From a bacterium (GTDB lineage: Bacteria; Patescibacteriota; Doudnabacteria; UBA920; VMFF01), in assembly GCA_021842385.1 (NCBI GenBank), contig JAKCAE010000011.1:1-40116 (forward strand): a stretch of 40,116 bases of DNA, given 5' to 3'. The translations under genes and the position numbers were made by a program. The notes below the pieces were generated by a model that saw only the letters and a program-made list of their open reading frames with translations, did not search any database and was not told the DNA's origin. This document shows, piece after piece, positions 5,001-24,210 of this stretch. Numbering within the stretch: position 1 is the stretch's first letter; the number at the start of each line of letters is the position of its first letter.

Positions 5001-5024
5001 TTGTTTGTATTTTCAATCTCTGCA

Positions 5025-5648
5025 CTATGGCAGAAACAATTGCACGCTGTTATAAAATCCTTGCTTGATATTTGAAAGTTGATTTCTAACTGCTGACAAA
5101 ACCGCATCAATATCTGATTCAGAAACTCCCTCAAAAGTTGCCCCTTGTTTTTGGGAAAATTCTAAATTGTATTCTGCAAGCAACAAGCGATGGTAGTCTT
5201 CAAAAACACTTGGTACGACTAGATTCCCAAGGTCAACCAAAAGCTTATCCTGTTTTTCTAATAGATCCGGAGTCTGCTTAGCAAAAATTAAACCCGCCGC
5301 ATTTTCGCTGTCTATAATTGTTCTAACCTGATTTGCATATTCTGCTAAAGCAGTACTTGAATTATTAGCAGAAAGAGTCACTTTAATGTTTGAAAACTCC
5401 TTGGCAATGTTTGGATTATACTCCGTAGCTCCCAAAACCTGGGCTCCGGTAGAATTACCGCCAATATTTCCTGCAAGCGGCTGATTATTCCAAGATAAAC
5501 CATATTCTTTAGAAGCAAGACGCATCGGACTCTGCACAAAAGCAAAAGAAATCAAAAGAATAGCCACAAAAACAATAAGTGCTACATTCTTAACTCCAAA
5601 ATCCTTTATTTTTGTTTCCACTTGATTTTCCAAGATATTGAGGTCCAT
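5025..5648 (-). CDS. membrane-anchored hypothetical protein
   Basis: 207-aa ORF with N-terminal TM, same strand and cluster. Confidence 0.7.
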   Translation of the reverse strand: MDLNILENQVETKIKDFGVKNVALIVFVAILLISFAFVQSPMRLASKEYGLSWNNQPLAGNIGGNSTGAQVLGATEYNPNIAKEFSNIKVTLSANNSSTALAEYANQVRTIIDSENAAGLIFAKQTPDLLEKQDKLLVDLGNLVVPSVFEDYHRLLLAEYNLEFSQKQGATFEGVSESDIDAVLSAVRNQLSNIKQGFYNSVQLFLP

Positions 5649-5715
5649 AAATTTCTCTTAAGTTATTTAAACCCCCACAAAAATCAACGTATTCTTCCCC
5701 CCGATTATATCATAA

Positions 5716-6579
5716 TTAAGAGGCTTTCGCAAGAAAATCTTTAAGACTCATATATAGCTTAAACCACTGTTCCAAAGAAAGCTCCTGTGGCCTTGCTTTT
5801 GAGTCCACCAAAGAGGCCTCTAACGCCTTTAAAAGAGTTGTTTCTTCCAATCCCAGGTTGTTTTTAAGAGTATTATGGATTTGTTTTCTCTTGCCAGCAA
5901 AAGCTGCTTTAACAAGCCTGAAAAACTCTTTTTCTGAAACATTGAATTTAGGTTTTGCAAGCATGTCTAAGACGAGAATCGCTGAATCAACTTTTGGAGA
6001 TGGAAAAAAGTCTGACTTTGGAACAAAACCTACGATCCTGGGGTTAGAAAAAAGCTGTACTGAAATTGCCAAAATGCTTAAATCCCCTGCTTTTGCTGTA
6101 ATCCTTTGAGCAACCTCTTTCTGCATCAGCAAAACAATCTTAGAAGGTCTGTTTTTAGCAGTGAGTAACATTTCAACAATCTTTCCAGTAATGTAGTATG
6201 GAATATTAGCAACAACTTTGTAACCAGGCTTTAATTCTTGCTGAAAATTAAAATGAGTGATGTCTGCAAAAACTAACTTAACGTTGGCTTTTGATTTCGG
6301 AGTTTTAGAATGCGTTTGTAAATGCTCCCCTAACTGATCTTTTAAAATCGGAAAGTATCGTTGATCCTTTTCTACTGCCAAAACATTAGCTCCTGTTTCA
6401 GAAAGGAGTTTTGTTAAATTTCCAATCCCAGAACCAATCTCTAAAACATCATCACCAGCAGAAAGTTCAGCAGCTGAAACTATTTCCCTCAAAGCATCTT
6501 CATTGATTAAAAAATTCTGTCCTAAAAGGTCATTTGGTCTAAACTTGTACTTTGCAAGCAGTTCCTTAATCTCTCTCAT
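5716..6579 (-). CDS. rsmA: 16S rRNA (adenine1518/1519-N6)-dimethyltransferase RsmA/KsgA
   Basis: Motifs LGQNFLINEDALREIV, VLEIGSGIGNLT, VVANIPYYITGKIVEMLL. Confidence 0.95.
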   Translation of the reverse strand: MREIKELLAKYKFRPNDLLGQNFLINEDALREIVSAAELSAGDDVLEIGSGIGNLTKLLSETGANVLAVEKDQRYFPILKDQLGEHLQTHSKTPKSKANVKLVFADITHFNFQQELKPGYKVVANIPYYITGKIVEMLLTAKNRPSKIVLLMQKEVAQRITAKAGDLSILAISVQLFSNPRIVGFVPKSDFFPSPKVDSAILVLDMLAKPKFNVSEKEFFRLVKAAFAGKRKQIHNTLKNNLGLEETTLLKALEASLVDSKARPQELSLEQWFKLYMSLKDFLAKAS

Positions 6580-9507: not shown

Positions 9508-9537
9508 AACGACGCCCTGCGGTTGCAAAGCGTCGTT
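9508..9537 (-). terminator. terminator of GC-rich cassette 1
   Basis: Minus: AACGACGC-TTTGCAACCGCAGG-GCGTCGTT followed by TTCAGTTTGTTTT. Confidence 0.65.
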
Positions 9538-9554
9538 CTAGTCAAACGTTGTTG

Positions 9555-10055
9555 TTAGCAAAGACTGTCGCTGATGTCAGCGGTGGTACCGACCAGGACA
9601 GCATCGTGATCGCCATCGCCATTCGGCGACGCGACAGCTGCCTCGAAGGTTCGAGGCGCACTGCGCCGTGACGTCAGCAGACGCACTACCCGAACATACC
9701 AGGTGTCGTGGATGGTGCCGTCTGGCTCTTCGACTGTCATGATCTCGACACTGACCCAGTCATACCAGGCCGGACCATGGTGGTTTTCCGGCCTGGGATC
9801 GATCCTGGCCAAGACAGCCTTGATTTGGTCAGTGATGCTGAGATTGGCTGGCCCGCATTCCATGAGCCAGCTCTCAGCTTCAATGGTGCCTTGGCTGAGC
9901 CCGGCGTTTTGGAAGACCGTCATCCAGCTCTTCTTGGGCTGGTGCAGATCTTGAGAGATCTGATCCACAACGATACGGCCAACCACGAGAATGGCCAAAA
10001 CCACCACGACGAAGCCTAATGCCAGAACAACTAGGATGCTCATGTCCGAGCCCAT
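9555..10055 (-). CDS. orphan membrane-anchored protein (GC-rich cassette 1)
   Basis: ORF from M25 of the track ORF; GGAGGCTGTGGTT-ATG; N-terminal TM (SILVVLALGFVVVVLAILVVG). Composition clearly more GC-rich than flanks. Confidence 0.65.
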   Translation of the reverse strand: MGSDMSILVVLALGFVVVVLAILVVGRIVVDQISQDLHQPKKSWMTVFQNAGLSQGTIEAESWLMECGPANLSITDQIKAVLARIDPRPENHHGPAWYDWVSVEIMTVEEPDGTIHDTWYVRVVRLLTSRRSAPRTFEAAVASPNGDGDHDAVLVGTTADISDSLC

Positions 10056-10162
10056 AACCACAGCCTCCGCGAAGGGGTACAGACCACGTGCGTGAACTAT
10101 TCCACCAAGCGCACCTTGCGCTTTCAAACAACGAATATTAACCCTTCTTTAAACTGTTGTAT

Positions 10163-10191
10163 ATATTCCCATAAAATATAGATAAAATCAA
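10163..10191 (-). promoter_or_regulatory. sigma70-like promoter of cassette 1 (TTGATT-N17-GAATAT)
   Basis: AATCAA 10186-10191, ATATTC 10163-10168 on the plus strand. Confidence 0.5.
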
Positions 10192-10197
10192 GGGATA

Positions 10198-10338
10198 GGT
10201 TTACTCCTCCCCATAATGGCTTATCTAAGCCAAATGTGGAAAAAAAACCGCATATCTAAGCCATTTTTTGGCTTAGATTAGCCAAAAACCTTGATTTTGA
10301 TGTTCATAGCTGGTAGTATGTGTTAGTTCGGAGTAAAC
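10198..10338. promoter_or_regulatory. nested palindromes between divergent promoters
   Basis: TGGCTTA-TC-TAAGCCA (10217-10232), ATCTAAGCCA-TTTTT-TGGCTTAGAT (10254-10278), TTTTTGGCT-TAGATT-AGCCAAAAA (10265-10288), outer inverted pair GTTTACTCC (10199-10207)/GGAGTAAAC (10330-10338). Confidence 0.6.
10291..10319 (+). promoter_or_regulatory. sigma70-like promoter of LysM-CHAP gene (TTGATT-N17-TAGTAT)
   Basis: Direct sequence read. Confidence 0.5.
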
Positions 10339-10607
10339 ATTAAACCAAGTATTTAGGTTTATTTTCATTTCAGGATACCTTTGCCAAAAGGCTTGCAGAA
10401 CGATAAAAAATACGCCAAACACTTGGAATCGGGGTATATATAAAAGGGTACGTAAACACGCTCAAGCAGTTTCTCCAGAAAGCTTTTGAAACACAGAAAA
10501 GCAAACTGCCTGAAGCTAAAAAATCTGCAAGCAGATACGTCAAAGTTGTTAGCTCCAGCGTTGAAAAGCATTTCAACTCATTCCATGCCCTACACTCACC
10601 TTTAAAG

Positions 10608-11684
10608 ATGGGGCGTTTGGACTATACTTTCAAATTCAGCACAGAACTCATTGTTGCTGGTCTTTCAGTTATTGTCATATCAGGAAATATCTTTGCCGGA
10701 GCACACTTTACTCAAGCAACCAACTCATTTACAAAACTGCTCTCCTACCACCCAGATCAAAACCCCGCTCTCTACAACAAAGCAACAACAGTAAAAACAG
10801 TAATTGCTCAAAATAACAATACAATCATCCCTTCCGCATCTGCTCAAGTAGTTTTGGCATCAAACGATGCATTAGCCAACACTATTCAAGCAAATGAAAA
10901 CGCCACAGCCTCAGTAATCACAGAAAACACCATTCAGAAGGAAAACCCAGACAACATCAAAAAGCTTGTTGTTGATCAAATCAAAGTATATGACACTGTT
11001 AAAGGTGATACCTTAAAAACAATAGCTGACAAATTTGGTATTAGCTCTGAAACAATCATCTGGGCAAACAATTTACCAAGCTCAACTATAAAGCCTGGCT
11101 GGAACCTTGTAATCTTGCCAACTAGCGGTGTTTTGCATAAAGTCACAAACAACGATACTCTTCCTGACATTGCTAAAAAATACAAGGTTGATATAGACAA
11201 AATAATCGCCTACAACGGATTAGAGGATGACTCTGACATTGAACCAGGCGATCTTTTAATTATCCCTGGTGGCGTAATTATTACTCCTGCTAAACCAAAA
11301 CCAGCAATTAAACATACTCTTCCGGGGAATGTTTCAGTATATGAACCACAAATCGGCGGCAATGATAGCGATGAGCATATCTTCCCATGGGGACAGTGCA
11401 CCTGGTATGTTGCTTCCAGAAGAAAAATTACGTTTGGCGGAAATGCTAAAAACTGGCTAACTAATGCCCGTGCCGCAGGATACTCAACAGGAAACTACCC
11501 AACAGTCGGATCTGTAGTCGTTACAACAGAAAACAGACGCTATGGACACGTTGCCTATGTTGAAAAGGTTGATGAGGAAGAAGGCACCATAACAGTTTCT
11601 GAATCAAACTACATAAGAAAAGGGTTCATTGATACAAGAAAGATAGACATGGGAAGTAAAGTAATTCGCGGATATATATATTAA
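10608..11684 (+). CDS. LysM-repeat plus CHAP-domain cell-wall hydrolase
   Basis: N-terminal TM; two LysM-like motifs (YDTVKGDTLKTIADKFGISSETIIWANNL; HKVTNNDTLPDIAKKYKVDIDKIIAYNGL); CHAP core FPWGQCTWYVASRR...GHVAYVEKV...ESNY. Confidence 0.85.
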   Translation: MGRLDYTFKFSTELIVAGLSVIVISGNIFAGAHFTQATNSFTKLLSYHPDQNPALYNKATTVKTVIAQNNNTIIPSASAQVVLASNDALANTIQANENATASVITENTIQKENPDNIKKLVVDQIKVYDTVKGDTLKTIADKFGISSETIIWANNLPSSTIKPGWNLVILPTSGVLHKVTNNDTLPDIAKKYKVDIDKIIAYNGLEDDSDIEPGDLLIIPGGVIITPAKPKPAIKHTLPGNVSVYEPQIGGNDSDEHIFPWGQCTWYVASRRKITFGGNAKNWLTNARAAGYSTGNYPTVGSVVVTTENRRYGHVAYVEKVDEEEGTITVSESNYIRKGFIDTRKIDMGSKVIRGYIY

Positions 11685-11695
11685 AGAAACAATAC

Positions 11696-11726
11696 AAAAG
11701 ACCGGCTAAGTTAAGCCGGTCTTTTT
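11696..11726. terminator. bidirectional terminator
   Basis: AAAAGACCGGCT-aagtta-AGCCGGTCTTTTT between convergent genes. Confidence 0.8.
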
Positions 11727-11734
11727 AAATATCC

Positions 11735-13501
11735 CTACTTAATTCCACCCACTGTATTAGGATCATTTGCTGTTGTAATATCATCAGCAGTTAAATTAAC
11801 AGGAACTGCCACAAACGAATCTGTACCGTTAAAAACAATATTGCTTACCAAAGTCATCTGAGATCCTCTGTTAGTTGTACCCGGCGTAATACTTACATTA
11901 AACTGCAAATTTCTGCTAGGCACAAACTCCCCGGCATGCGCAGGAACTGAACCGATATTCCAAACAAGTTTTTTAATACTCTGGTCATAGGAAACATTAG
12001 CAACCTCTTCAGGATTTAAAGACTTAGTATCAAAAGAAGAAGAATTAGGAAGATTTAAAGTTAACTTAGAACCAGAAATGTCATTTGTTGAATTGCTTAA
12101 AGCAATATTAACCTGATATGTTGTAACACTGCCGACTTTAGCAGGTTTTGCTCCACTGTAATATGTTAAGGAAGTTGAAAGATCAGCATCAGTCAAAACC
12201 TTTAAAATACTGCTTTGGCCCTTAAAAGGCTGTGTGTTTTCATTACTTCTAATCTCAGAAGCAACTGAAACAGAAATATTTTTTTGACTTGTCCTGGTTA
12301 TGGGACTTTTCAAAGAAACAGTAAACCTTAAATCACCGCCATCTCCTGGAGCAAGTGCTGCTAACTTAGAAATCTGCGCTCCATCCCATGAAACCACGTT
12401 ATTATCAACAACAGCACCCTCTGCACGAATTGATTCAAGGTCATATGCTGCACTTGGTGCAAGAGTTGCGCTTAGATGCACTCCTGTTGCTACAAAACTA
12501 CTATTATTCTTGTAACTAACTTTGTAAATTAGGTGGTCCCCTGCTTTAACATAGTTTGCGTTTGAGGTTGCATCAATACTAACATCTGCAGAAAGCGGCT
12601 GACTTGAAATATCAACAAAAAGCTGGGCAGCTGTTAGAGCAAAGCTTGGATCCCCTTTTATAGAACCATTAGCTTGCACAGAAATTGTTAACTGATCCCC
12701 TGTATGCGCACCTTTAAAATTACCAAGGAGCTTAATTTGACCGCTTTGATTTGCTTTAAGATCCCCAATATTCCAGGTGCTATTAAAATTAGCCTTAGGC
12801 TCTGAAGACAAAACATTAAACTCCTTAGGCAGGGTTGCTGAAATGGAAAAACTTGAAATAGTTTCTGTCGTAAAATTAGAATATGAGACAATATATGTCA
12901 CATCCTCTGAGGCATTAACACTTCCCGGTCCGTCAATTTGTATGGCTACATCTGCGGTCTTAATCTGTGTTTGACTTTGTGCTGAAGCAACGAACTCAGA
13001 GGTGTTGGTGTTAGAAAAACGGTAATGCATTATGGCATTTAAAGTCTTAGTTTCTGAAGCATTACCAACAACGTCTCCTTTAATCATAATCGTTGTTTCC
13101 TGACTTGGGTCAAGCGGCGGCAAACCAAACTGGGTACCGTTTAACTTTGTTGGTTTTGGCACGCTGTCTAAAAAAGTAAACCCTTGAGGATATACTAAAT
13201 CCAAACTGATATTTTTGATGCTGTCTGAATCGTTGTTTTTAACGCGAACTTTGTATATTAACTCAGAACCCGTGGCAACTGTCTGGGGAGCATCAATGCT
13301 TAAGGTGACTTTTGGTTGAATGTTTTTAGAAGAGCTGGGTGTACGAAAGATGAAATATATTGCAACTGAAAGCACGAGTACAGAAGCCACAATAGTCCAG
13401 ATTGCCCATTTGTTCTGCTTGTAAAAAGAAACCGGAGCCTCTGGCTCTGTTGCTGGTATATTGGGCTGTTTTGGCGTTGTTTGTATTTGTATTTCTGTCA
13501 T
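11735..13501 (-). CDS. membrane-anchored surface protein with DUF11-like beta-sandwich repeats
   Basis: N-terminal TM, repeated units such as ATGSELIYKVRVKNNDSDSIKNISLDLVYPQGF and KAGDHLIYKVSYKNNSSFVATGVHLSATL. Confidence 0.75.
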   Translation of the reverse strand: MTEIQIQTTPKQPNIPATEPEAPVSFYKQNKWAIWTIVASVLVLSVAIYFIFRTPSSSKNIQPKVTLSIDAPQTVATGSELIYKVRVKNNDSDSIKNISLDLVYPQGFTFLDSVPKPTKLNGTQFGLPPLDPSQETTIMIKGDVVGNASETKTLNAIMHYRFSNTNTSEFVASAQSQTQIKTADVAIQIDGPGSVNASEDVTYIVSYSNFTTETISSFSISATLPKEFNVLSSEPKANFNSTWNIGDLKANQSGQIKLLGNFKGAHTGDQLTISVQANGSIKGDPSFALTAAQLFVDISSQPLSADVSIDATSNANYVKAGDHLIYKVSYKNNSSFVATGVHLSATLAPSAAYDLESIRAEGAVVDNNVVSWDGAQISKLAALAPGDGGDLRFTVSLKSPITRTSQKNISVSVASEIRSNENTQPFKGQSSILKVLTDADLSTSLTYYSGAKPAKVGSVTTYQVNIALSNSTNDISGSKLTLNLPNSSSFDTKSLNPEEVANVSYDQSIKKLVWNIGSVPAHAGEFVPSRNLQFNVSITPGTTNRGSQMTLVSNIVFNGTDSFVAVPVNLTADDITTANDPNTVGGIK

Positions 13502-13516
13502 AGATTCAGTGTATAT

Positions 13517-14251
13517 TTAAAGTTTACCTAATAACTCCGAGGCATTCAAATCGCGTTCTAAAATATGCTTTGCAAAAGACACAACTAAACGATGGATCTC
13601 AGCCGAAAACTCTGCCCCTTCTTGATCAATTTCTTCAAAATCTTTTTGCTGGCTTTGTAAATTAGCGTGCTTTGAAACAAGGGTATATACAGAATTACTG
13701 ACTTTCAAAGCATCAGAAATCTTTAAAGCGCAGGACTCGCAGACAAAACCTCCTCTTCTGTTGCTAAAAGAAACATTTTCTGAAAGTTTCTTGCCGCAAA
13801 GCACACAGTTTTTTGCACTCAAAGCATAACCTGACAAAGCCAAAAGCTCTAAAACAAAAATATCTGTACAAACATGCTTTGAAACAGCGGAAACGTCAAG
13901 ATGTCGCAAAAGCTCTAAAAACAAATCAAAGATTTCAGAGTTTTCTTCCTGATCAGCGGTTGATTTTAACAAAACCTCTAAAGCATACAAAGCATAGGAA
14001 GCTTTTTGCGGATTTGAATATATGTTCTGAAAAACCTCCAAGGATTTTACTCCCGTAACTGTTGGTAGTTTTTTGTTGGGTAATAGCTCGAGCTCTGTTA
14101 AAAAAAAGGTTTGCAAGGCATGAGAAAGTTTGCTCTTTGGTGACTTCACTGAACGCGCAAGCGCGCGAACCTTGCCAAGTTCGCGCGTATATATTGTTAA
14201 TATCTCGCTGCCTTCAGAAAAAAGGCTTTTCTTCAGAACTATCGCTTTCAT
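13517..14251 (-). CDS. recO: DNA repair protein RecO
   Basis: MKAIVLKKSLFSEGSEILTIYTRELGKVRALARSVKSPKSKL; CxxC...CxxC zinc motif (CVLCGKK...CESCA). Confidence 0.85.
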   Translation of the reverse strand: MKAIVLKKSLFSEGSEILTIYTRELGKVRALARSVKSPKSKLSHALQTFFLTELELLPNKKLPTVTGVKSLEVFQNIYSNPQKASYALYALEVLLKSTADQEENSEIFDLFLELLRHLDVSAVSKHVCTDIFVLELLALSGYALSAKNCVLCGKKLSENVSFSNRRGGFVCESCALKISDALKVSNSVYTLVSKHANLQSQQKDFEEIDQEGAEFSAEIHRLVVSFAKHILERDLNASELLGKL

Positions 14252-17232
14252 ACTTTTTGAATTCCCAGCCAAATTGCTTTGTCTTCAATCAAAAGCTGTG
14301 CTTCAATTTCAGGCTCTACCTCTAACTCTTTTTTAACCTGAACGACAAATGTTTTCTTGCGATCAAACTTGTTGATTAAAGCCATCTCCAAACTAACAGC
14401 TTGGGTGTTGTAATACAAATCAATCAAATCTCCAACTTTCAAGCCATTTTTCTTGCGCAGATCCTGAACTTGTCTTTCTAACTCTCTGGCATAGCCTTCT
14501 TCTTTTAATTCAGGGGTTAACTTTGTGCTTAAAAGAATCTGAAACTCAGAATTTTCTTTGAAAACTGTTTCTGGCATTTCTGAAATCTCCGGACTTTGAT
14601 GAACCTCTTTAACATTAAGTTCCTCTGAAAGGATTGCCGAAAGCTCAATAGAAAACTCCAAAGTGCCTGTCTTTGATTTGTAAGCAACATATTCCAAAGG
14701 CTGCCTTACTTTAATATTAGCCTCTTTTCTTGCAGACAAACCAAGCTCAACTATATCCCTTAGAGTCTGCATTTGTACGATGAGGGCTTTTTCTGATTCT
14801 GAAAGTTCAGAAACATTAACATTCCAAGATGCTAAATGCACGCTTTCATTGCCTGTCAAATCACGGTAGATGGTTTCTGAAATGAACGGCATAATCGGAG
14901 CAAGCAACTTTGAAAGTTCCATTAAAACATAACCCAAAACATGCAAAGATGTTTTTGCTTGATCATCACTGCTCTTAAAACGATCTCTGCTTCTTCTGAC
15001 ATACCAGGTTGAAAGGTCGTTGATGAAGCGCAAAACCGGTTTTGTTGCTCTGACCGTGTCATAGGCGTCCATTTGTTTTGTTACTTCAAGCTGCAATTCC
15101 TTCAAGAGCGCAAGAATCCAAAGATCCAAAACGTTTTCTGAAGAAGGAACAGAACCAGGATCAGATATTTTTTCGCTGCTGTACATCCTTAAAAAGCTAT
15201 GCACGTTTCCCAAAAGCAGGGTTATCTTCTTGTATATTTCATCCAAATCTTTTTCTGAAAAAGAAAGATTCTCTCCCTGCATCACAGGAGAAGACATCAA
15301 GTAAAAACGCAATGCATCAGCGCCATACTTGTCAAAGATCAACCAAGGATCAGGAAAGTTCTTTTTAGACTTTGACATTTTCTGGCCGTCTTCTGCCAGA
15401 ACAACTCCTGTAGTGACAACGTTTTCAAAAGGAGCCTGATCCCACAAAATCGCACTCATCACATGCATGACATAGAACCAGGCGCGGGTTTGATTGATGT
15501 ACTCTGCAACAAATTGCGCTGGTCTTCTTTGCTGCACTGCTTCTTTGTTTTCAAAAGGATAATGAAACTCAGCAAAAGGCATGCTTGCTGATTCCACCCA
15601 GCAATCAACAACCTCAGGAACTCTTTGCATGTCATGGCCGCAAACACCGCAAGACATCTTGATCTGGTCAATATATGGCTTATGCAAATCAACCTCAGAT
15701 ATATTTTCTGACTTGTAAACCTCATTGTAATTCAAAGCTTTTTCTGAAAGCTCTTTTAATGACCCTATGCAAATTGATCTGCCGCAGCTTTTGCTGCTGC
15801 ACTTCCAAAACGGCAGTGGTGTTGCCCAGTACCTGTTCCTTGAAATATTCCAATCAGGGGCGCTTTCCAAACCCTTTTTAAAACGTCCTTCTTTTAGATG
15901 CTCTGGATACCAATTAATATTTTCATTCAGCTCTAAAAGCCTTGGTTTAATCTTTTGGATATTAATAAACCAGGAAGGAAGAGCGCTGTAATACAACCTG
16001 GTGCCGCAACGCCAGCAAAAAGGAACTGAGTGTGTGTATACCTCTTTTTTAAAGAGAAGATTGTTTTCTTCTAGGGCTTTAACAATTTCAGGCTCTGTAT
16101 CTTTGTAAAACTTACCCTTTAAAAAATTAGGTGCTTGCTCATTAAACACTCCCTGAGCATTAAGCAGCTGAACTGCAGGCAGCCCAACTTTTAATCCAAG
16201 CTCGTAATCTTCTTCGCCATACATCACAGCAGTATGCACAATACCAGTGCCATCCTCTATGGTCACAAAGTCAGCTGCATAGACTTTAAAAGACTTTTCA
16301 GATTGCAAAACAGGAACCTCAAAAAGCGGCTTGTAAGCTAGACCAACAAGCTCTGAACCTTTAAACTCTTTTTCAACCTTTGGATTATTAAACAAAACCT
16401 CAGCTTTTGCTTTTTCAAGAATATACAAAGCATCTTCAATTCCATCTTCCAAATCCCCTGCACCTGGCTTAACCAAAACATAATCAATATTAGGACCTAC
16501 TGCCATGGCAACATTCCCAGGCAATGTCCAAGGCGTTGTTGTCCAGGCAAGCAAATATGTTTTTGCACCAAACTTGCTGTTTAAAACCTCCGCCTTAACA
16601 ATGACGGAGTCTTCTGAAACATCATCATATGAATTGTCAGAAGCAACCTCAAAATTTGAAACAGGAGTTTCACAACGCGGACAATACATCAAAACTTTAC
16701 GACCTTCATAGATCAAACCCTTGTCCCAGGTTTGTTTCAAAGCCCACCAAACAGATTCCATGTATGCAGAATCCATGGTTTTGTAGGAATCATCAAAATC
16801 AACAAAACGTGCCATTCTTCTGACAGTTTTTCGCCACTCTTCAACATACCTTAAAACATCAGTACGGCATTTGTTGTTGAAAGTATCAACACCGATTTTT
16901 TCAATTTCTTTTTTTCCGGAAATTCCAAGCTCTTGCTCAACAAGCTGTTCAATCGGCAAACCATGACAATCCCAACCCCAGCGTCTTCTGACAAAACGTC
17001 CTTTCATTGTCCAATATCTGCCAAAAACATCCTTTGCCGTAGAACCTAAAATATGTCCGTAATGAGGAAGACCTGTGGCAAAAGGAGGACCATCGTAGAA
17101 AACATACGGCGGATTAGCTTCATTCTGCTTTAAAGACTTTTCAAAAATCTTTTCTTTGTCCCAATATTCTAAAAGACTAACTTCTTTCAAAGCAGCACTT
17201 TGTTTTTCTGTGTTTTGTTCTTGTTCTGTCAT
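14248..17232 (-). CDS. ileS: isoleucyl-tRNA synthetase
   Basis: PPFATGLPHYGHILGSTAKDVFGRYWTMKG (HIGH), CHGLPIE, GQKMSKSKKNFPDP (KMSKS). Confidence 0.97.
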   Translation of the reverse strand: MTEQEQNTEKQSAALKEVSLLEYWDKEKIFEKSLKQNEANPPYVFYDGPPFATGLPHYGHILGSTAKDVFGRYWTMKGRFVRRRWGWDCHGLPIEQLVEQELGISGKKEIEKIGVDTFNNKCRTDVLRYVEEWRKTVRRMARFVDFDDSYKTMDSAYMESVWWALKQTWDKGLIYEGRKVLMYCPRCETPVSNFEVASDNSYDDVSEDSVIVKAEVLNSKFGAKTYLLAWTTTPWTLPGNVAMAVGPNIDYVLVKPGAGDLEDGIEDALYILEKAKAEVLFNNPKVEKEFKGSELVGLAYKPLFEVPVLQSEKSFKVYAADFVTIEDGTGIVHTAVMYGEEDYELGLKVGLPAVQLLNAQGVFNEQAPNFLKGKFYKDTEPEIVKALEENNLLFKKEVYTHSVPFCWRCGTRLYYSALPSWFINIQKIKPRLLELNENINWYPEHLKEGRFKKGLESAPDWNISRNRYWATPLPFWKCSSKSCGRSICIGSLKELSEKALNYNEVYKSENISEVDLHKPYIDQIKMSCGVCGHDMQRVPEVVDCWVESASMPFAEFHYPFENKEAVQQRRPAQFVAEYINQTRAWFYVMHVMSAILWDQAPFENVVTTGVVLAEDGQKMSKSKKNFPDPWLIFDKYGADALRFYLMSSPVMQGENLSFSEKDLDEIYKKITLLLGNVHSFLRMYSSEKISDPGSVPSSENVLDLWILALLKELQLEVTKQMDAYDTVRATKPVLRFINDLSTWYVRRSRDRFKSSDDQAKTSLHVLGYVLMELSKLLAPIMPFISETIYRDLTGNESVHLASWNVNVSELSESEKALIVQMQTLRDIVELGLSARKEANIKVRQPLEYVAYKSKTGTLEFSIELSAILSEELNVKEVHQSPEISEMPETVFKENSEFQILLSTKLTPELKEEGYARELERQVQDLRKKNGLKVGDLIDLYYNTQAVSLEMALINKFDRKKTFVVQVKKELEVEPEIEAQLLIEDKAIWLGIQKV

Positions 17233-17246
17233 ATTTTAAATATATT

Positions 17247-17391
17247 AAAAACACCGTAACTGAAGAGCCCTTTCTTAGGACGGTACCATCTTCATTGGTG
17301 CTTGATTATGCTTTTTACGCAAAGCTTGCGGACTGGTCTACTTAATATTTCTTCAGTCAGCTCCCTGATTGATGTATCAGGTCAAACGCTT
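17247..17391 (-). ncRNA. T-box riboswitch-like leader of ileS
   Basis: Minus: GAAGATGGTACCG (TGGTACC T-box core, 17281-17293), alternative pairings GAAGA/TCTTC (antiterminator) versus ACCGT/ACGGT followed by TTTTT (terminator), and upstream hairpin CCTGAT-ACATCA-ATCAGG (17364-17381) with AUC in its loop; immediately upstream of ileS. Confidence 0.75.
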
Positions 17392-17397
17392 TTCTTT

Positions 17398-17426
17398 AGT
17401 ATACCAGAAAAACAAATATTCTCCAA
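17398..17426 (-). promoter_or_regulatory. promoter of ileS leader (TTGGAG-N17-TATACT)
   Basis: Direct read; 17-bp spacing, TGG immediately 5' of -10. Confidence 0.55.
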
Positions 17427-17435
17427 AAAACAACT

Positions 17436-17471
17436 AAGGCTGTCGAAATCATCATGACTTCGAACAGCCCT
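17436..17471 (-). terminator. terminator of GC-rich cassette 2
   Basis: Minus: AGGGCTGTTCGAAGTCATGATGATTTCGACAGCCTTAGTTGTTTTTT. Confidence 0.7.
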
Positions 17472-17499
17472 AGTGCGTAACCCCTCAACTTCCTCCTAA

Positions 17500-18036
17500 C
17501 TATTCTGCAAGCAGCTCCTTCAGCTTGACCTGGCCGGTCATCAAGGCTTTGGCTGCGCGATACACCTTGTAGACGAACACGCGAATCGGCCCGCGCGTGT
17601 ACCACTGGACCGAGTAAGGATCGTATGGCACCTGAACCTCGGCTCGAGAGATCCAGGAGTGCTTGATTCCGCGCTCAGCGAGCTGCCGTCTTAGCAACAT
17701 ACGGCAGAAACGGTAGTGCTCTTCTTTGCAGAGAAGCACGAAGTTTACCTTGCTGAGATTGAAACCACGCTCGACAAGCCCGTCGAGATGACCTTTCACG
17801 ATGAGATGAGAATCGCGCGAGTACTTGCGCTCGTGCGCTATCCCTTCGACAACACATTGGGACCAGAACCCGTTTAGCTCGACGATGTAGTTAATCTCCT
17901 TCTGAAAGGAACGATGCACGAACTCGTTCCAATGTGCAATTGCCCACCAGGCCATAACCTGGTTGCTGTAGCCTGGTTCCCAACTCGAGCCTTTTCTCCG
18001 AAAACCCCAGGAGAAGCCCAGCAGTACCTGCTCCAT
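17500..18036 (-). CDS. orphan 178-aa protein (GC-rich cassette 2)
   Basis: GGAGGCGGG-ATG start; GC-rich composition compared with flanking ileS/argS. Family not recognised with confidence. Confidence 0.7.
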   Translation of the reverse strand: MEQVLLGFSWGFRRKGSSWEPGYSNQVMAWWAIAHWNEFVHRSFQKEINYIVELNGFWSQCVVEGIAHERKYSRDSHLIVKGHLDGLVERGFNLSKVNFVLLCKEEHYRFCRMLLRRQLAERGIKHSWISRAEVQVPYDPYSVQWYTRGPIRVFVYKVYRAAKALMTGQVKLKELLAE

Positions 18037-18089
18037 CCCGCCTCCGTATCAACAGTGTGGTATAGAAAAGCAATATTGCGAGACTAAAC

Positions 18090-18118
18090 ATCTTGCCATT
18101 ATCAAGACTCCTTGTCAA
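18090..18118 (-). promoter_or_regulatory. promoter of cassette 2 (TTGACA-N17-CAAGAT)
   Basis: TGTCAA 18113-18118, ATCTTG 18090-18095 on the plus strand. Confidence 0.55.
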
Positions 18119-18127
18119 CGGGGTATT

Positions 18128-18151
18128 AAAAAAACACCCACACTTGTGGGT
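18128..18151 (-). terminator. argS terminator
   Basis: Minus: CCCACA-AG-TGTGGGTGTTTTTTT. Confidence 0.75.
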
Positions 18152-18166
18152 ATTAAAAAAACAAAA

Positions 18167-19906
18167 CTACATTTGCTCCACTGTTTTAATTCCAAGCAAA
18201 GATAACCCGTGCTTCAAAACATTAGCAACAGCAGACAACAAAACCAAGCGCTGTTGTTTCTTTTCTTCTGTCTCTGCCTGCAACACTGAAACTTGATCAT
18301 AGAAAGCGTTAAACTTAGAAGCAAGCTCAAAAAGATAGCTGCAAACTGCTGTTGGTCTGAAATCTCTAGTTGCATTAACCACTGTTTCGTCATAGTGCAA
18401 CAAATGCCGCAGCAAACTTTGTTCTGTATTCTCTGTTAATTCAGATGGTGCTTCCTTAGAAAGACCCCCTGCCTTAGCAAGAATGCTTTTAATACGCGCG
18501 TAAGTGTATTGCAAATACGGTCCGGTGTTTCCCTCAATGGCTGCTGTTTCTTCCAAATCAAAATATATTTTCGTATTCCTGTCATATTTCAAGTATCCGT
18601 ACTTTATGGCACCATATGCAATGGTTTCAAGCAAAGCATCATCATCTGCAGAACCTTTAACTTTCTGAGATGCTTTCATGACCTCAGCAACGCGTTGTTT
18701 GGTTTGAACAAGCAAATCATCTGCAGAAACTGTATTACCTAAACGAGAAGACATCTTTTCTTTTCCTAAATACACATGCTCATATGGCAGGTGCTTAAAA
18801 CTTCCTGCCCAAGGAAACTTCATTAACTCAAAAAGCTTTGACAAGACCTGAAAGTGATATGCTTGTTCTGAAGATGTTGTCACAACAGCTTCCTCAGGCT
18901 TGTGCTTTTCATTCCTTAAATACCAAAGATACAAATCCTGGGTAATGTATATGGTTGTGCCGTCTTTCCTTAAAAGATACTTCTTGTCCAAGCCCTGCTC
19001 TGTTAAATCAACAGAAACACTACCATCCGCTTCTTTAACAAAAATGCCCATATCTACGCCTTTCATAACTAGGTCCCGGCCTTTGTCATACAACTCGCTT
19101 TCGTGCTGAACCTCATCAAAACTTGATCCTTCCGAAAGATATGTTTGTTTAACTCCTTCATAAAACCAGTTATTCATCCTCTGCCACAAAGCTCTGGTCT
19201 CAGAATCCCCTGCTTCCCACTTGCGTAAAAGCTCTTGAGCTTCTTCTTCCAAAGGAGTTGGTTTGTCGTCTACTTTCTTCTGATTTTCTTTTTCAAACAT
19301 GGCATAGAATCTGCCAACAAAATGATCTGGTTTTTCCCCTTCGCTTTCCGGAGTTTCTCCATTACCATGCTTTAAATACATGAGCATGCTTTTCATAATA
19401 TGGATACCGCGATCATTTATGACCTCGCAGGAAATCACATCGTGACCTGTTGCTCTCAACAAATTAATACAAGCCATGCCAAAAACATCGTTCCTGGTGT
19501 GTCCAATATGCAAAGGCTTGTTAGTATTAGGAGAAGAATATTCAAAAACAACTTTTCTACCTAAACCAATTGGATCAATCTTAATCTCTCCTGTTAAATC
19601 TAAAACATTTTGTGCTACTGCTTCCTTTGAAACAAAAATATTAACAAAACCGCCCACTACCTTGACCTGAGAAATCTTTTTACCGCCTTTTGCATCAAGC
19701 TCAGAAAGAGCGCGGGCAATAATCTCTGCAACATCAGGTGCTTGAAACTTTCCTTCTGCAGCAATAATCATAGCAACATTGGTGCTGTAATCTCCGAAGC
19801 TTTCTTTGGGAATATTAAAATTAAAAGCAGGCAATGCCGATATTTGCCCGTTTTCAAACATAGTGCCTAAAACTTCCGAAAGAAGCTTTTCCAAATACCT
19901 TTTCAT
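18167..19906 (-). CDS. argS: arginyl-tRNA synthetase
   Basis: VFEYSSPNTNKPLHIGHTRNDVFG, KMSSRLGNTVSADDLL, NTGPYLQYTYARIKSIL. Confidence 0.97.
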   Translation of the reverse strand: MKRYLEKLLSEVLGTMFENGQISALPAFNFNIPKESFGDYSTNVAMIIAAEGKFQAPDVAEIIARALSELDAKGGKKISQVKVVGGFVNIFVSKEAVAQNVLDLTGEIKIDPIGLGRKVVFEYSSPNTNKPLHIGHTRNDVFGMACINLLRATGHDVISCEVINDRGIHIMKSMLMYLKHGNGETPESEGEKPDHFVGRFYAMFEKENQKKVDDKPTPLEEEAQELLRKWEAGDSETRALWQRMNNWFYEGVKQTYLSEGSSFDEVQHESELYDKGRDLVMKGVDMGIFVKEADGSVSVDLTEQGLDKKYLLRKDGTTIYITQDLYLWYLRNEKHKPEEAVVTTSSEQAYHFQVLSKLFELMKFPWAGSFKHLPYEHVYLGKEKMSSRLGNTVSADDLLVQTKQRVAEVMKASQKVKGSADDDALLETIAYGAIKYGYLKYDRNTKIYFDLEETAAIEGNTGPYLQYTYARIKSILAKAGGLSKEAPSELTENTEQSLLRHLLHYDETVVNATRDFRPTAVCSYLFELASKFNAFYDQVSVLQAETEEKKQQRLVLLSAVANVLKHGLSLLGIKTVEQM

Positions 19907-19942
19907 ATCTCAAATTATACCATAAACTACAGGTAGGAAGTC

Positions 19943-20386
19943 ATGAAAATACTCGTAAACAACAGAAAAGCAGCCTTTGATTACAACATTTCTAATGAAA
20001 TGATTGCGGGTTTAGTATTGTCAGGATCTGAGGTTAAAAGCCTGAAAGCCTCGCAAGCCTCCCTAAAAGGCGCGTACATATCCATACGTCACAGTCCAAA
20101 CCCTGAAGCATACCTTGTTAAAGCGCATATCACCCCTTACAAATATGCTGGCATTAAAAATCCTGATCCTGAAAAAGAGAGGAAGCTTCTTTTAAACAAA
20201 AAAGAAATCTCTTCATTAATCGGCAAAGAAAAAGGAACTGTCATCATTCCCTTAGAAATCTTTGTCGGAACAAAAGGATTAATTAAGTTAAAAATCGGTG
20301 TTGGTAAAGGTAAAAAGAAATACGACAAAAGAAGTAGTATAAAAAAGAGGGAGATTGAAAGAAGAATTAAACGACAGGAAGATTAA
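19943..20386 (+). CDS. smpB: SsrA-binding protein SmpB
   Basis: NRKAAFDYNI, AGLVLSGSEVKSLKASQASLKGAYISI, KKYDKRSSIKKREIERRIKR. Confidence 0.95.
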   Translation: MKILVNNRKAAFDYNISNEMIAGLVLSGSEVKSLKASQASLKGAYISIRHSPNPEAYLVKAHITPYKYAGIKNPDPEKERKLLLNKKEISSLIGKEKGTVIIPLEIFVGTKGLIKLKIGVGKGKKKYDKRSSIKKREIERRIKRQED

Positions 20387-20387
20387 C

Positions 20388-21254
20388 ATGGCTACAGAAA
20401 GACCGGGCTTTGGCGAAGAGCAAAGCAGTAAAATTGAGTATCTGCAAGAAAGAAGCGCTGAGTTTAACGAAGCGCTAAACGGTCTTGATCTTGAATTAAT
20501 TAAACGCCTAATCCAAGAGGAAGCTCTTAAATCTGGCCGCGAAAAAGGCAGCAACTTAAACTTTCTGGATCAAGGAAGGATTGGAGAAATAGAGGCAAGG
20601 GGTCATGAAAGCTCTATGCCCATCTCCTTTTACAACTCCGCAACAAATGAAATAGAGGTGGATTTTAACGGCTTAGCAGAACAAGCAGAAAGACAAAACC
20701 CTTTCTTAACCAAAGAAGGTCTTAAAGCATACCTCGTAGCAGTTCTCATTCATGAAGAACTTCACGCGGCCACAGAGCTGCAAGCCTTGGGGTATGTTGG
20801 CTACCAACATTTTCGCAGCTATCAGGTTTGGAACGAAGGCGTTACAGAAAAACTGGCCCGCGAATTAACGGAAAAATACTACAAAACAACAGCAGACTTT
20901 TCACAATACGACCAATCAAAAAGCTACAATTACGAAAGCGCTGTCCTGCTTTTAGATGTGGTCATTGCAAAGCTTTCTGCGGCTACTGGCTTTGACCAAC
21001 AAACAGTATGGAATGCCATAAAAAGAGGGATGTTTGAAAACACCAGCCTAGAAAGCAAAGAACTTCAAGAACTCTTTGAACAAACACTTCCTGCAGATTT
21101 CTTTAAAAATCTCAGGACCGCAAATCCTTTAAACGAAACAGAAATACATACATTAATTGAAAAGATGAATCAGGGATCACTGGAAAAAATAGTTACCAGA
21201 CTAATTAAGTTCCTGCATTTTGAAAAGCCTACTGATTCTCGAAAAGCCGCTTAA
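20388..21254 (+). CDS. putative zinc metallopeptidase (HExxH), cytosolic
   Basis: Starts directly after the smpB stop (taacATG); LIHEELHAATELQALGY...WNEGVTEKLARELTEKYY suggests HExxH plus downstream Glu ligand; no signal peptide. Confidence 0.6.
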   Translation: MATERPGFGEEQSSKIEYLQERSAEFNEALNGLDLELIKRLIQEEALKSGREKGSNLNFLDQGRIGEIEARGHESSMPISFYNSATNEIEVDFNGLAEQAERQNPFLTKEGLKAYLVAVLIHEELHAATELQALGYVGYQHFRSYQVWNEGVTEKLARELTEKYYKTTADFSQYDQSKSYNYESAVLLLDVVIAKLSAATGFDQQTVWNAIKRGMFENTSLESKELQELFEQTLPADFFKNLRTANPLNETEIHTLIEKMNQGSLEKIVTRLIKFLHFEKPTDSRKAA

Positions 21255-21774
21255 AAATCCTTAAATACTGCTTTCTAATCCCCTCAACTCTGCCAATTTC
21301 CAAAACCTCATCATTGTAAACTGCCGCAGAAACCGTATAGTTAAAACTCCCTGAAGCATAAGCTTTGTCTGTAACCAACATCTTAATATGCATTAAACCG
21401 CTTTCCTTTGGCACTATCTTTAGAACAATGCCGTATTTTTTTAATTTATTAACCCAAGGTTTTTCTTCTGGAATTTCAACCTGATTAGAATCCAAAACTC
21501 CTAAGACTTCCAGCCCACGAAGCTTTGCCGCTATCAAAGCATTAACAATATTCTCCTTGGTGATTGTGTACACCGCAAAATAGACGAACTTTTCAGCTTG
21601 CTGAATTTCTGAAACCAACGCCTCGTCTATACCCTCCTCCATTGAATACAAAACCTTGGTCTGAGCATAGGCATTCTCATAAAGCCTTGTTTCCAAAGAA
21701 AGGTTTCTGAAAAGCAAGAAAATAAAAACAAGAGGGGTTAATATGGTTATGCTTAAACGAAAAAATCTGGACAT
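21229..21774 (-). CDS. phospholipase D-like domain protein, N-terminally anchored
   Basis: Single HKD motif HIKMLVTDKAYASGSFN; N-terminal TM. 3' end overlaps the convergent metallopeptidase gene. Confidence 0.8.
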   Translation of the reverse strand: MSRFFRLSITILTPLVFIFLLFRNLSLETRLYENAYAQTKVLYSMEEGIDEALVSEIQQAEKFVYFAVYTITKENIVNALIAAKLRGLEVLGVLDSNQVEIPEEKPWVNKLKKYGIVLKIVPKESGLMHIKMLVTDKAYASGSFNYTVSAAVYNDEVLEIGRVEGIRKQYLRIFKRLFENQ

Positions 21775-21812
21775 TTATCCAGATTAACACAAAGAAATTA
21801 AATATATATTAA

Positions 21813-22031
21813 CTACTGAGAAACATTAATTGGTGCGGGCTTTTTCTTGAAAATACCAAAAGATGTTTTCTTTTCACGAGCATTTCTTAACATCTGAATG
21901 GTTTGCATATCAACAGATTCTGCTAAAGCATATTGCTGATCAACAAAACTGTTGTAAGCAATGTAAAAAACAAGACCTCCGGCTAAAACAAAAAGCAAAG
22001 ATATTACAATGGTTACACGACTTAAAAACAT
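21813..22031 (-). CDS. small membrane protein
   Basis: MFLSRVTIVISLLFVLAGGLVFYIAYNSF...; internal Met of the track ORF. Confidence 0.6.
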   Translation of the reverse strand: MFLSRVTIVISLLFVLAGGLVFYIAYNSFVDQQYALAESVDMQTIQMLRNAREKKTSFGIFKKKPAPINVSQ

Positions 22032-22087
22032 AAGGGAATAATAATAGAAAAAGAACAAACTGGCAAAAAAACATATCCACAAACACC

Positions 22088-22122
22088 AGCGCCCGCTGAC
22101 CAGAAAGGATCAAACGGGCGCT
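22088..22122 (-). terminator. 3' hairpin of GC-rich cassette 3
   Basis: AGCGCCCG...CGGGCGCT perfect arms; only weakly T-rich downstream. Confidence 0.45.
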
Positions 22123-22137
22123 CAGTAGTTCTTGGTG

Positions 22138-22263
22138 CTATCGCGGCACAACAGGCAGCGACGCTGCCATCATGCTGATGAACCACAGCGCAAAGATACC
22201 CAAAAGACACAAGAATACCTGCACTGCGGCTCGAAACAACCGACGCAGAACAACCAGGTTCAT
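22138..22263 (-). CDS. 41-aa predicted membrane microprotein (GC-rich cassette 3, second ORF)
   Basis: AGGAGGATTT-ATG; manual translation MNLVVLRRLFRAAVQVFLCLLGIFALWFISMMAASLPVVPR*. Below the track length cutoff. Confidence 0.55.
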   Translation of the reverse strand: MNLVVLRRLFRAAVQVFLCLLGIFALWFISMMAASLPVVPR

Positions 22264-22271
22264 AAATCCTC

Positions 22272-22736
22272 CTATGGTCTCCTTTTGGACACATCAACTA
22301 CTCTCCAACGAGCATCAGCTTCTGAACGCTTGGCAGACCAGTGCCAGGTCCCATTCAGCCAAAAGAGAAAGAAGCCGAAGCTTTCGTGACTTGAAAGCAC
22401 TGCACTGTCTCTTCCCAAAACCTCGATCTTACGCAGCTCAGAGCTTGAACGGGTAAAACGAGGCCTGCTCCGCAATCTGCAAGATCTGGAAAGGTCAGCC
22501 CTGATCGTATCAAGGACAACCCCTCCAAAAAAGCGCGGGAGCAAAGCCTGAGAAGCTGAGTCGCAAGGGTTTTTTGCAAAAACCGGCTTCAGCTTCAAAA
22601 CCTCAAAAACAAGGTTTCTAAGCTCAAATTCAACCAATGCTGACTCAGAGAGCGTTGAGTCCTGTTTGCCCAATCCTTGTCCCTGCAAGGACAAAGCAAA
22701 CAGACTGCTAATTGCAAACAACAAAATCCGCTGCAT
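22272..22736 (-). CDS. orphan exported Arg-rich protein (GC-rich cassette 3)
   Basis: GGAGGGGCAG-ATG; signal peptide MQRILLFAISSLFALSLQGQ. Confidence 0.65.
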   Translation of the reverse strand: MQRILLFAISSLFALSLQGQGLGKQDSTLSESALVEFELRNLVFEVLKLKPVFAKNPCDSASQALLPRFFGGVVLDTIRADLSRSCRLRSRPRFTRSSSELRKIEVLGRDSAVLSSHESFGFFLFWLNGTWHWSAKRSEADARWRVVDVSKRRP

Positions 22737-22783
22737 CTGCCCCTCCAAGGTTAAGGAAATACTCTGACTGCGGATTAAAAGAC

Positions 22784-22812
22784 AAATTAACACAAAAAAA
22801 GAAAATGGTCAA
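22784..22812 (-). promoter_or_regulatory. promoter of cassette 3 (TTGACC-N17-TAATTT)
   Basis: GGTCAA 22807-22812, AAATTA 22784-22789 on the plus strand. Confidence 0.55.
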
Positions 22813-22815
22813 AAG

Positions 22816-22845
22816 AAAAACACCCCAAATTTCTTGGGGTGTTTT
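22816..22845. terminator. bidirectional-looking terminator
   Basis: AAAACACCCCAA-attt c-TTGGGGTGTTTT. Confidence 0.75.
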
Positions 22846-22859
22846 AATGTTTGTCTAAA

Positions 22860-23411
22860 CTACTTTACTTCAATATTTAGCGCAGTCAAATCATCTGCTA
22901 CTAAAGCCACAACAAACTGTTTTGTTTTCAAAGATGAGAGAGGAATCTCAGAACCTTCTGACAAAATTACAGTCTGTGCTGATGTATAGATGGTTTGTTG
23001 TTCTCCGGAGTTATCATTTAGAGTAATCTCATTTCCATTAATGCTTGCAATGGTTCCAGAAATTCTCGTTCCTGCTGTCATCATTCCGCCTCTGCCAAAA
23101 GAGTACATCATGTTAGTCCCTTTGTTTGACCAAGAATCAGCATCTCTAGAAAAAGTAACAAAACCATTACCCATCATTGCCCTAAAACCAGAGCCATACA
23201 TACCGATACCAATTCCAATTTTAAAAACCAACAAAATAACTAGTGCAATTAGCAAAATCTTGGCAATGCGCCAAAAAGGATTGCGATGAAAATATCCGTG
23301 GTCACCACAGCAATATTTTCCATTGCAATAGCAGTTGTCGTTGTTTGGAGTATTTTTTTCCATATTTTTCCTTTGTTTCATTATATTTTTAATATATAGA
23401 TATTTTAACAA
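22860..23411 (-). CDS. membrane protein with C-terminal DUF5666-like domain and N-terminal Cys-rich segment
   Basis: NDNCYCNGKYCCGDHGYFH, one TM, then GTIASINGNEITLNDNSGEQQTIYTSAQTVI. True start may be an internal Met. Confidence 0.65.
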   Translation of the reverse strand: MLKYLYIKNIMKQRKNMEKNTPNNDNCYCNGKYCCGDHGYFHRNPFWRIAKILLIALVILLVFKIGIGIGMYGSGFRAMMGNGFVTFSRDADSWSNKGTNMMYSFGRGGMMTAGTRISGTIASINGNEITLNDNSGEQQTIYTSAQTVILSEGSEIPLSSLKTKQFVVALVADDLTALNIEVK

Positions 23412-23442
23412 TTCTTAAAAGAAAAAACAAATCAAAAGCAAC

Positions 23443-23506
23443 AAAAAAAGGATGCCTCCCAACATCCCTTGCCCTCTTTGTTCTCCCCGTCCCAGTAAGG
23501 GACGGG
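23443..23506 (-). terminator. double hairpin terminator of GC-rich cassette 4
   Basis: Minus: CCCGTCCC-TTACT-GGGACGGG, then GGATG-TTGGGAGG-CATCC-TTTTTTT. Confidence 0.7.
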
Positions 23507-23542
23507 TTTCTTTGATCCTCCGTTTCAGAACTCCACCAGCTA

Positions 23543-24139
23543 TCAGGCAACTGCTTGAGCAAGCAGCAAACGCGCCCGATGCAGACGCATCTTTACTGCT
23601 CCTTCGTTGACATTCAAGGCCTTGGCAATATCCTTGTACTTCATCTCCTCAAAACAAGCAAGATATACAACCTGAGAAAGGGGTCTGGAAAGACTGTTCA
23701 GACATCTCAGCAACAGTTCATTCTCTTCCTTGAGAATGAGTTGTTCCAGTGGGTCCAGCGAAGAATCAGCAGGACACCACTCCTCAAACTCAACATTTCC
23801 AGGCACCTGCTCGCAATGCTTGTATTCGCCCTTCTTGAACTGGTCTTTGAAAAGGTTGTACAACATCCGCGAAACCCAGCCATCAAAGGTCCCGCTACCG
23901 TTAAAACCACGGATATTCCGCAGAACCTTGAGCCAGCAAACTTCCACGATCTCCTCAGCAGCATCAGCATCGCCATTGAAAAGCTTGAGTGCTGTCTTAA
24001 AGAGCCAGCCATAGTGTCTGCTGTAAAGCTCGTTGAAAGCTGACTCCTCGCCGCCGAGAAACCTCTGGATCAACTCCGAATCGCTAGGTCCTAAAACCAC
24101 AGCGTCGGAGCCGTTAAAACGTACCGAACGTTTTGCCAT
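23543..24139 (-). CDS. sigma-70 family (ECF-like) RNA polymerase sigma factor (GC-rich cassette 4)
   Basis: GGAGGCGCA-ATG; SDSELIQRFLGGEESAFNELYSRHYGWLFKTAL (region 2), MKYKDIAKALNVNEGAVKMRLHRARLLLAQ (region 4). Confidence 0.85.
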   Translation of the reverse strand: MAKRSVRFNGSDAVVLGPSDSELIQRFLGGEESAFNELYSRHYGWLFKTALKLFNGDADAAEEIVEVCWLKVLRNIRGFNGSGTFDGWVSRMLYNLFKDQFKKGEYKHCEQVPGNVEFEEWCPADSSLDPLEQLILKEENELLLRCLNSLSRPLSQVVYLACFEEMKYKDIAKALNVNEGAVKMRLHRARLLLAQAVA

Positions 24140-24181
24140 TGCGCCTCCGCGCCAAAGGAAAAGGAACCTGCTAACATCTAA

Positions 24182-24210
24182 ATTATTCCATCCTGCAAAA
24201 AAAGAGTCAA
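24182..24210 (-). promoter_or_regulatory. promoter of cassette 4 (TTGACT-N17-AATAAT)
   Basis: AGTCAA 24205-24210, ATTATT 24182-24187 on the plus strand. Confidence 0.55.

Follow-up and report, generated by a model that had tools for sequence, protein, structure and literature searches.

Four GC-rich cassettes in the window

The DNA analysed here (the window) is a 40,116 nt stretch, contig 3 of a genome (GenBank assembly GCA_021842385.1; 565 kb in 45 contigs, 90% complete, 39.1% GC) that, among named organisms, is closest to Candidatus Doudnabacteria and related bins of the Patescibacteria. Four short cassettes on its minus strand, each with a promoter, a Shine-Dalgarno (SD) site, one or two open reading frames (ORFs) and a 3' hairpin, sit among host genes that include a uvrD-like gene, ileS, argS and others. 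Their features are given below; promoters were located by pattern matching, and SD sites and hairpins were read from the sequence. G001 and G002 are the two congeners of the window genome (G000), their IleS proteins being 88–90% identical.

10163..10191, minus strand: cassette 1 promoter, TTGATT-17-GAATAT, kept in G001 and still seen in part (GTGAATATATAC) at the G002 site
10064..10068, minus strand: cassette 1 SD, GGAGG
9555..10055, minus strand: cassette 1 ORF, 166 aa, hydrophobic membrane-anchor-like N-terminal segment, no family match
9508..9537, minus strand: cassette 1 terminator hairpin, AACGACGC...GCGTCGTT, kept in G001 and G002
18090..18118, minus strand: cassette 2 promoter, TTGACA-17-CAAGAT
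18041..18045, minus strand: cassette 2 SD, GGAGG
17500..18036, minus strand: cassette 2 ORF, 178-aa orphan, GC at third codon positions (GC3) 0.69
17438..17469, minus strand: cassette 2 terminator hairpin
22784..22812, minus strand: cassette 3 promoter, TTGACC-17-TAATTT
22742..22746, minus strand: cassette 3 SD, GGAGG
22272..22736, minus strand: cassette 3 ORF 1, 154-aa orphan, signal-peptide-like N-terminus
22138..22263, minus strand: cassette 3 ORF 2, hydrophobic microprotein of 41 aa, separate AGGAGG site, homolog in G002
22088..22122, minus strand: cassette 3 terminator hairpin, AGCGCCCG...CGGGCGCT
24182..24210, minus strand: cassette 4 promoter, TTGACT-17-AATAAT
24144..24148, minus strand: cassette 4 SD, GGAGG
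23543..24139, minus strand: cassette 4 ORF, 198-aa extracytoplasmic function (ECF) sigma factor, homolog in G002, read in frame
23443..23506, minus strand: cassette 4 3' hairpins, CCCGTCCC...GGGACGGGG, then GGATG...CATCC and a T run

The initial annotation, made from the sequence alone, had marked these intervals, 0.65–0.75 kb each, as GC-richer than their surroundings, and this was borne out. In 500-bp windows, GC peaks at 0.57, 0.54, 0.49 and 0.49 over cassettes 1–4, the remaining stretch being mostly at 0.33–0.45, and ORF GC3 is about 0.65–0.68, 0.69, 0.50 and 0.53, compared with 0.27–0.48 in adjacent genes; by GC3, cassettes 3 and 4 rank as weaker examples of the class described below. The four promoters with 17-bp spacing are present verbatim on the minus strand where they had been placed, as are the GGAGG sites, ORFs and 3' hairpins, including the microprotein gene of cassette 3. 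The ECF-like nature proposed for the fourth ORF agrees with Pfam matches to sigma-70 regions 2 and 4 (Sigma70_r2, 1.2e-10; Sigma70_r4_2, 5e-15). This is the only product of the four units for which a family could be assigned, and among the cassette proteins tested only the sigma factor matches PHROGs (1.1e-22). PADLOC gave no defence match for the window cassettes.

A second gene class in the genome

Where the initial annotation counted four cassettes, the whole genome has about 36 cassette genes, spread over about 40 islands. A scan of the genome gave 62 GC-rich stretches across most contigs, some being tRNA or rRNA; tRNA clusters and 16S rRNA GC islands were excluded from the class by the gene-based analysis, in which genes were called with a purpose-written two-model caller that gave the same SD bonus for start choice in both classes. 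An intron-like insert (L041, about 200–330) appears to split the 16S rRNA gene close to its 3' end, before the contig edge. GC3 values inside the genome-wide distribution had been named at the outset as a sign against distinct modules; GC3 in G000 is instead bimodal, with 444 host genes mostly below 0.45, 36 cassette genes at 0.55–0.8 and almost none intermediate. The genes of G002 split alike (443 host, 30 cassette).

The two classes also differ in their expression signals. An upstream SD (GGAGG or AGGAG) precedes 69% of cassette genes in G000 and 63% in G002, compared with 9% and 7% of host genes. Among promoters scoring at least 9/12, a spacing of 17 is found in 21 of 26 for cassettes and in 114 of 342 for host genes, and a stable hairpin (-12 kcal/mol or lower) with a T-run lies behind 76% of cassette genes but 20% of host genes. 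The distance from the -10 box to the ATG is mostly 50–80 nt in cassettes, with a predicted leader of about 60 nt, whereas host genes peak at 10–20 nt. Most cassettes are single and scattered, and their products include ordinary enzymes (cytidine deaminase, orotidine monophosphate (OMP) decarboxylase, an ABC-F-like ATPase). No common boundary repeat was seen at the cassettes, in line with the initial annotation, and no integrase. Visual comparison of the upstream and downstream flanks, made for every cassette gene of the two genomes, showed no shared end motif, an attC covariance search not having been made.

The raised GC follows the transcript. The level is 0.5–0.55 within a stretch that opens at about -40 in G000 and about -60 in G002 and closes some 60 nt beyond the stop codon, and 0.35–0.40 outside. 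GC at first and second codon positions (GC1, GC2), third positions, amino-acid content and untranslated regions (UTRs) are all shifted, which argues for a pressure on the nucleic acid and not on codons alone. Codon bias is marked (AAG 0.85, TTA 0.01). A tRNA mismatch was considered as proof of expression elsewhere and dropped, since the genome's own tRNA set has anticodons for GC-ending codons; avoidance of UpA was observed but may just follow from the GC-rich composition. Relative to synonymous shuffles, cassette ORFs fold with a z-score of -2.03 ± 0.20, host ORFs with -1.05 ± 0.16 and control genes from genomes of 50–59% GC with -0.43 ± 0.15; with shuffles that also preserve codon neighbours, the values are -1.17 for cassettes and -0.46 for host genes. 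This excess folding is a hint, not proof, of selection on mRNA structure.

Inheritance, GC retention and spread

The three species are roughly equidistant (ileS nucleotide identity 0.82), so that cassette gain is not distinguishable from cassette loss. About half of the cassettes have orthologues in the sister species, mostly in place, and for most islands with an assignable position in G002, the alignment either runs through or shows the same site occupied. Cassette 1 is in place in both congeners, with proteins only 26–27% identical, and ORF 1 of cassette 3 shares 57–60% aa identity with the G001 and G002 copies. Cassette 2 has a diverged copy in G001, cut by the contig end, and is absent from G002, where its flanks are 28 bp apart. 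Of the options first offered, independent acquisition is not supported as a recent event by these positions, cassettes 1, 3 and 4 lying at or near the same place in G002 and cassette 2 having its copy in G001. Conservation of all four in relatives, which had been set against the idea of mobile modules, was found for three of the four, and only within the genus. Three empty sites in G002 point to cassette turnover: at one (C15), the cassette promoter is joined directly to the terminator and the body alone is missing, while at the two others the entire unit is gone.

Among 358 reciprocal best hits between G000 and G002, 342 pair host genes with host genes, 16 pair cassette genes with cassette genes, and none are mixed. 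Divergence at fourfold sites is 0.45 for host pairs and 0.52 for cassette pairs (0.56 without one 100% identical pair), and median protein identity is 0.63 for cassette pairs versus 0.91 for host pairs. GC at fourfold sites (GC4) of the cassettes is 0.68 and 0.64 in the two lineages, whereas decay from a donor GC4 of 0.9, modelled with weak/strong (W/S) relaxation rates taken from host genes, predicts 0.58 and 0.54. The ancestral GC4 required under amelioration is 1.11 (bootstrap 95% range 1.01–1.21, both lineages), which excludes simple acquisition and decay under the assumptions of the model. The view that the cassettes are not simple unadapted foreign DNA thus holds: orthologous pairs are as diverged as host genes and still GC-rich, and relaxation toward host composition, as in recent foreign genes, was not found. 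The existence of a discrete class whose GC does not decay is well supported. An odd GC content that outlasts divergence of over half of the fourfold sites contradicts the usual assumption that it marks recent transfer, and its persistence means that some maintaining force must exist.

Beyond the genus, proteins were searched in 380 sampled Patescibacteria genomes. Matches to a response-regulator-like cassette protein occur in 9 other genomes, and those to a 307-aa cassette protein in 10, G002 included; apart from the congener, none of these is in the same order. A distant relative of the 307-aa protein, used as a third query, matched 28 of the 380, across many families, with one in the same order. 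At most inspected distant loci, the matching ORF has a GC content of 0.54–0.65, GC3 of 0.6–0.93, an SD and a hairpin, in a setting often of 34–48% GC, and a conserved leader is common to two of them (L217 and L223). Host GC and distant-cassette GC3 give a Spearman coefficient of 0.51 (P 0.11), which is not decisive. Type III hammerhead ribozymes lie right after two response-regulator-like cassette genes (L019, 2337–2390, and L023, 3924–3977, minus strand). In two distant genomes (L215, L221), alike, pseudoknot-looking 3' sequences (CCGGT...GGCAGAT...ACCGG...CTGCC) lie downstream of the cassette gene, where other copies carry the hammerhead; they have no Rfam match.

Two single-protein scans of viral contigs and a tblastn search of phage and plasmid records gave no cassette match. 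A family alignment search found a member in two IMG/VR contigs, one of them with terminase subunits and an integrase. In both, the family gene adjoins a diversity-generating retroelement (DGR), and the variable and template repeats differ almost solely at template adenines. The window genome also has a complete DGR, the target of which is a GC-rich cassette gene on contig C6:

L008 (contig C6), 3723-6309: DGR
4766-4893: template repeat
4930-5310, minus strand: Avd-like ORF
5245-6309: reverse transcriptase

No second variable repeat for the C6 template was found in the genome, hence none in the window cassettes, and the DGR was rejected as an explanation of the class, since it holds for one cassette only. 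What the initial annotation had suggested, a class of lineage-specific or mobile modules with their own codon usage, stands as regards class, architecture and lineage-specificity, and as regards mobility for some families only: patchy spread, three empty sites and two phage-type contigs back some movement, while most shared cassettes are in place.

Stretches of L010 (contig C8) and L047 (contig C45) are 99% identical to the sister-bin contig C7, the genomes elsewhere being about 80% identical, and stem either from a recent transfer or from contamination of at least one of the two bins. At about 6800 of G002 contig C33, a stretch of this public bin resembles a sequencing-adapter remnant (GCTCTTCCGATCT). 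In the window, a T-box-like leader with a TGGTACCG core precedes ileS (17260–17395, minus strand; Rfam 27.8 bits against a gathering threshold of 93, E 5e-4), and the ileS leader region aligns in G001, G002 and G004. A 3034-aa ORF (30914–40018, minus strand) has a GC3 of 0.29 and no Pfam match.

Interpretation and comparison with known systems

The window cassettes are probably part of a set of about 36 moron-like autonomous units in Doudnabacteria, a kind that seems to be present in distant Patescibacteria as well. In each unit, a sigma-70-type promoter of its own (17-bp spacing) would be followed by a leader some 60 nt long, a strong SD and one or two short ORFs, with an intrinsic terminator at the end. 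Most host genes have no SD and, where a promoter can be placed, its -10 box tends to lie just before the ATG; a self-sufficient unit could be inserted between such genes and expressed without disturbing them. Units may occasionally transfer between Patescibacteria, with phages as one possible carrier, and would afterwards be inherited vertically. Less firmly, selection on the transcript for an mRNA that is leadered, folded and poor in A and U may keep their GC high: every codon position and the UTRs share in the enrichment, and the ORFs fold more stably than their synonymous shuffles. Carriage by phage, selection at the RNA level and the functions of single members are what we infer from sequence.

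Among other explanations, a bias of mutation or repair local to these loci (through GC-biased gene conversion or steady homologous exchange with relatives), with no selection on RNA, is unlikely, though it would accommodate several observations: all codon positions and UTRs are affected and cassettes diverge fast, cassette 1 being only 26% identical between congeners with its promoter and terminator kept. Against it, the GC-rich domain spans the transcript from near its start to near the terminator, which fits RNA better than recombination tracts, and the folding exceeds that of synonymous shuffles. We consider it improbable that the cassettes were simply acquired horizontally from GC-rich bacteria and have yet to finish ameliorating. 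GC-rich codons, the ordinary enzymes among the members, patchy occurrence and the three empty sites would suit such an origin, but fourfold divergence is at least that of the host, yet GC4 remains at 0.68 and 0.64 and an unattainable donor GC4 of 1.11 would be needed; genes of intermediate class are almost lacking, no orthologues switch class, and leaders and 3' ends are GC-rich as well. Somewhat more doubtful still is translational selection on very highly expressed genes with optimised codons. Strong SDs and promoters and a marked codon bias are what it would predict, and EF-Tu and ribosomal genes do lean slightly toward higher GC3; they reach only 0.41–0.46, the highest host values in general being 0.40–0.46, so high expression alone is an insufficient explanation, and GC1, GC2, amino acids and UTRs are shifted too; the proteins evolve fast (median identity 0.63 vs 0.91). 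Expression of the cassettes, or export of their RNA, in the partner cell of a presumed episymbiont, with tuning to its signals and codons, is very improbable: sigma-70 promoters, SDs and GC-rich codons do stand apart from the mostly SD-less host genes, but no DNA or RNA export signal was seen, the genome's own tRNAs read GC-ending codons and several products look like internal enzymes.

Several points weigh against the reading as moron-like units of wide occurrence. The gene calls come from our own script, and some are on the wrong strand (e.g., the ECF gene of G002). In the amelioration model, host genes are taken to be close to equilibrium and both classes to change at the same rates. The 3' end of the 16S rRNA, and hence the anti-Shine-Dalgarno, was not found in the window genome. 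Cassettes 1–3 have no detected homolog outside the genus (50 relatives searched for cassettes 1 and 3). Among distant loci, the homologs at L219 and L220 are not GC-rich, which means that high GC is not obligatory, and L216 is ambiguous; folding of distant cassettes is weak (z -1.14, P 0.05) and vanishes under context-preserving shuffles. Movement is deduced from patchiness and not from phylogeny, and there is no common boundary or integrase to accompany it.

A broader proposal, tentative at best, is that Patescibacteria have two kinds of transcript: an AT-rich core, mostly SD-less and in many cases apparently leaderless, and an accessory pool, partly circulating between lineages, whose transcripts selection would keep structured, SD-led and rich in GC over their full length. 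The pool would be a separately translated and regulated expression class moving as ready-made units. Patescibacteria have tiny genomes with many genes lacking a functional annotation, and the class is recognisable by GC3, SD, 17-bp promoter and terminator. This signature would flag, in any genome, accessory genes subject to turnover, with a possible role in interactions with partners or phages, and SD-led and SD-less genes offer a natural contrast inside one small genome.

No description of such a class was found in the open-access literature. Horizontally acquired ORFan genes are usually AT-rich; the cassettes are likewise short, fast-evolving and mostly without a family, but they differ in being GC-rich and in making up an expression class of their own. 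A survey of DGRs in the global microbiome that includes the Candidate Phyla Radiation (CPR) covers DGR target genes of Patescibacteria (PMC8144416). The C6 cassette is a variable gene of this type, and relatives of another cassette family are targeted in the IMG/VR contigs, whereas no other variable repeat matches the C6 template and the window cassettes are not shown to be such targets. Integron gene cassettes are also small single-gene units of unrelated function, but they are promoterless and stand in tandem behind an integrase, while the units here each carry a promoter and a terminator, lie dispersed one by one and, by eye, have no end in common that resembles attC. Phage morons are autonomous single-gene transcription units of atypical composition, inserted between phage genes. 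The cassettes are best compared with these: both bring their promoter and terminator with them, hold one or two short accessory genes, deviate in GC and lack a dedicated boundary repeat. They differ in that about 36 units occupy a cellular chromosome, those of the window between host and not phage genes, and in that their composition is kept over deep vertical divergence, with a leadered SD design in an SD-poor genome. The closest likeness is thus to phage morons, in a form that is chromosomal, mostly vertical and compositionally maintained.

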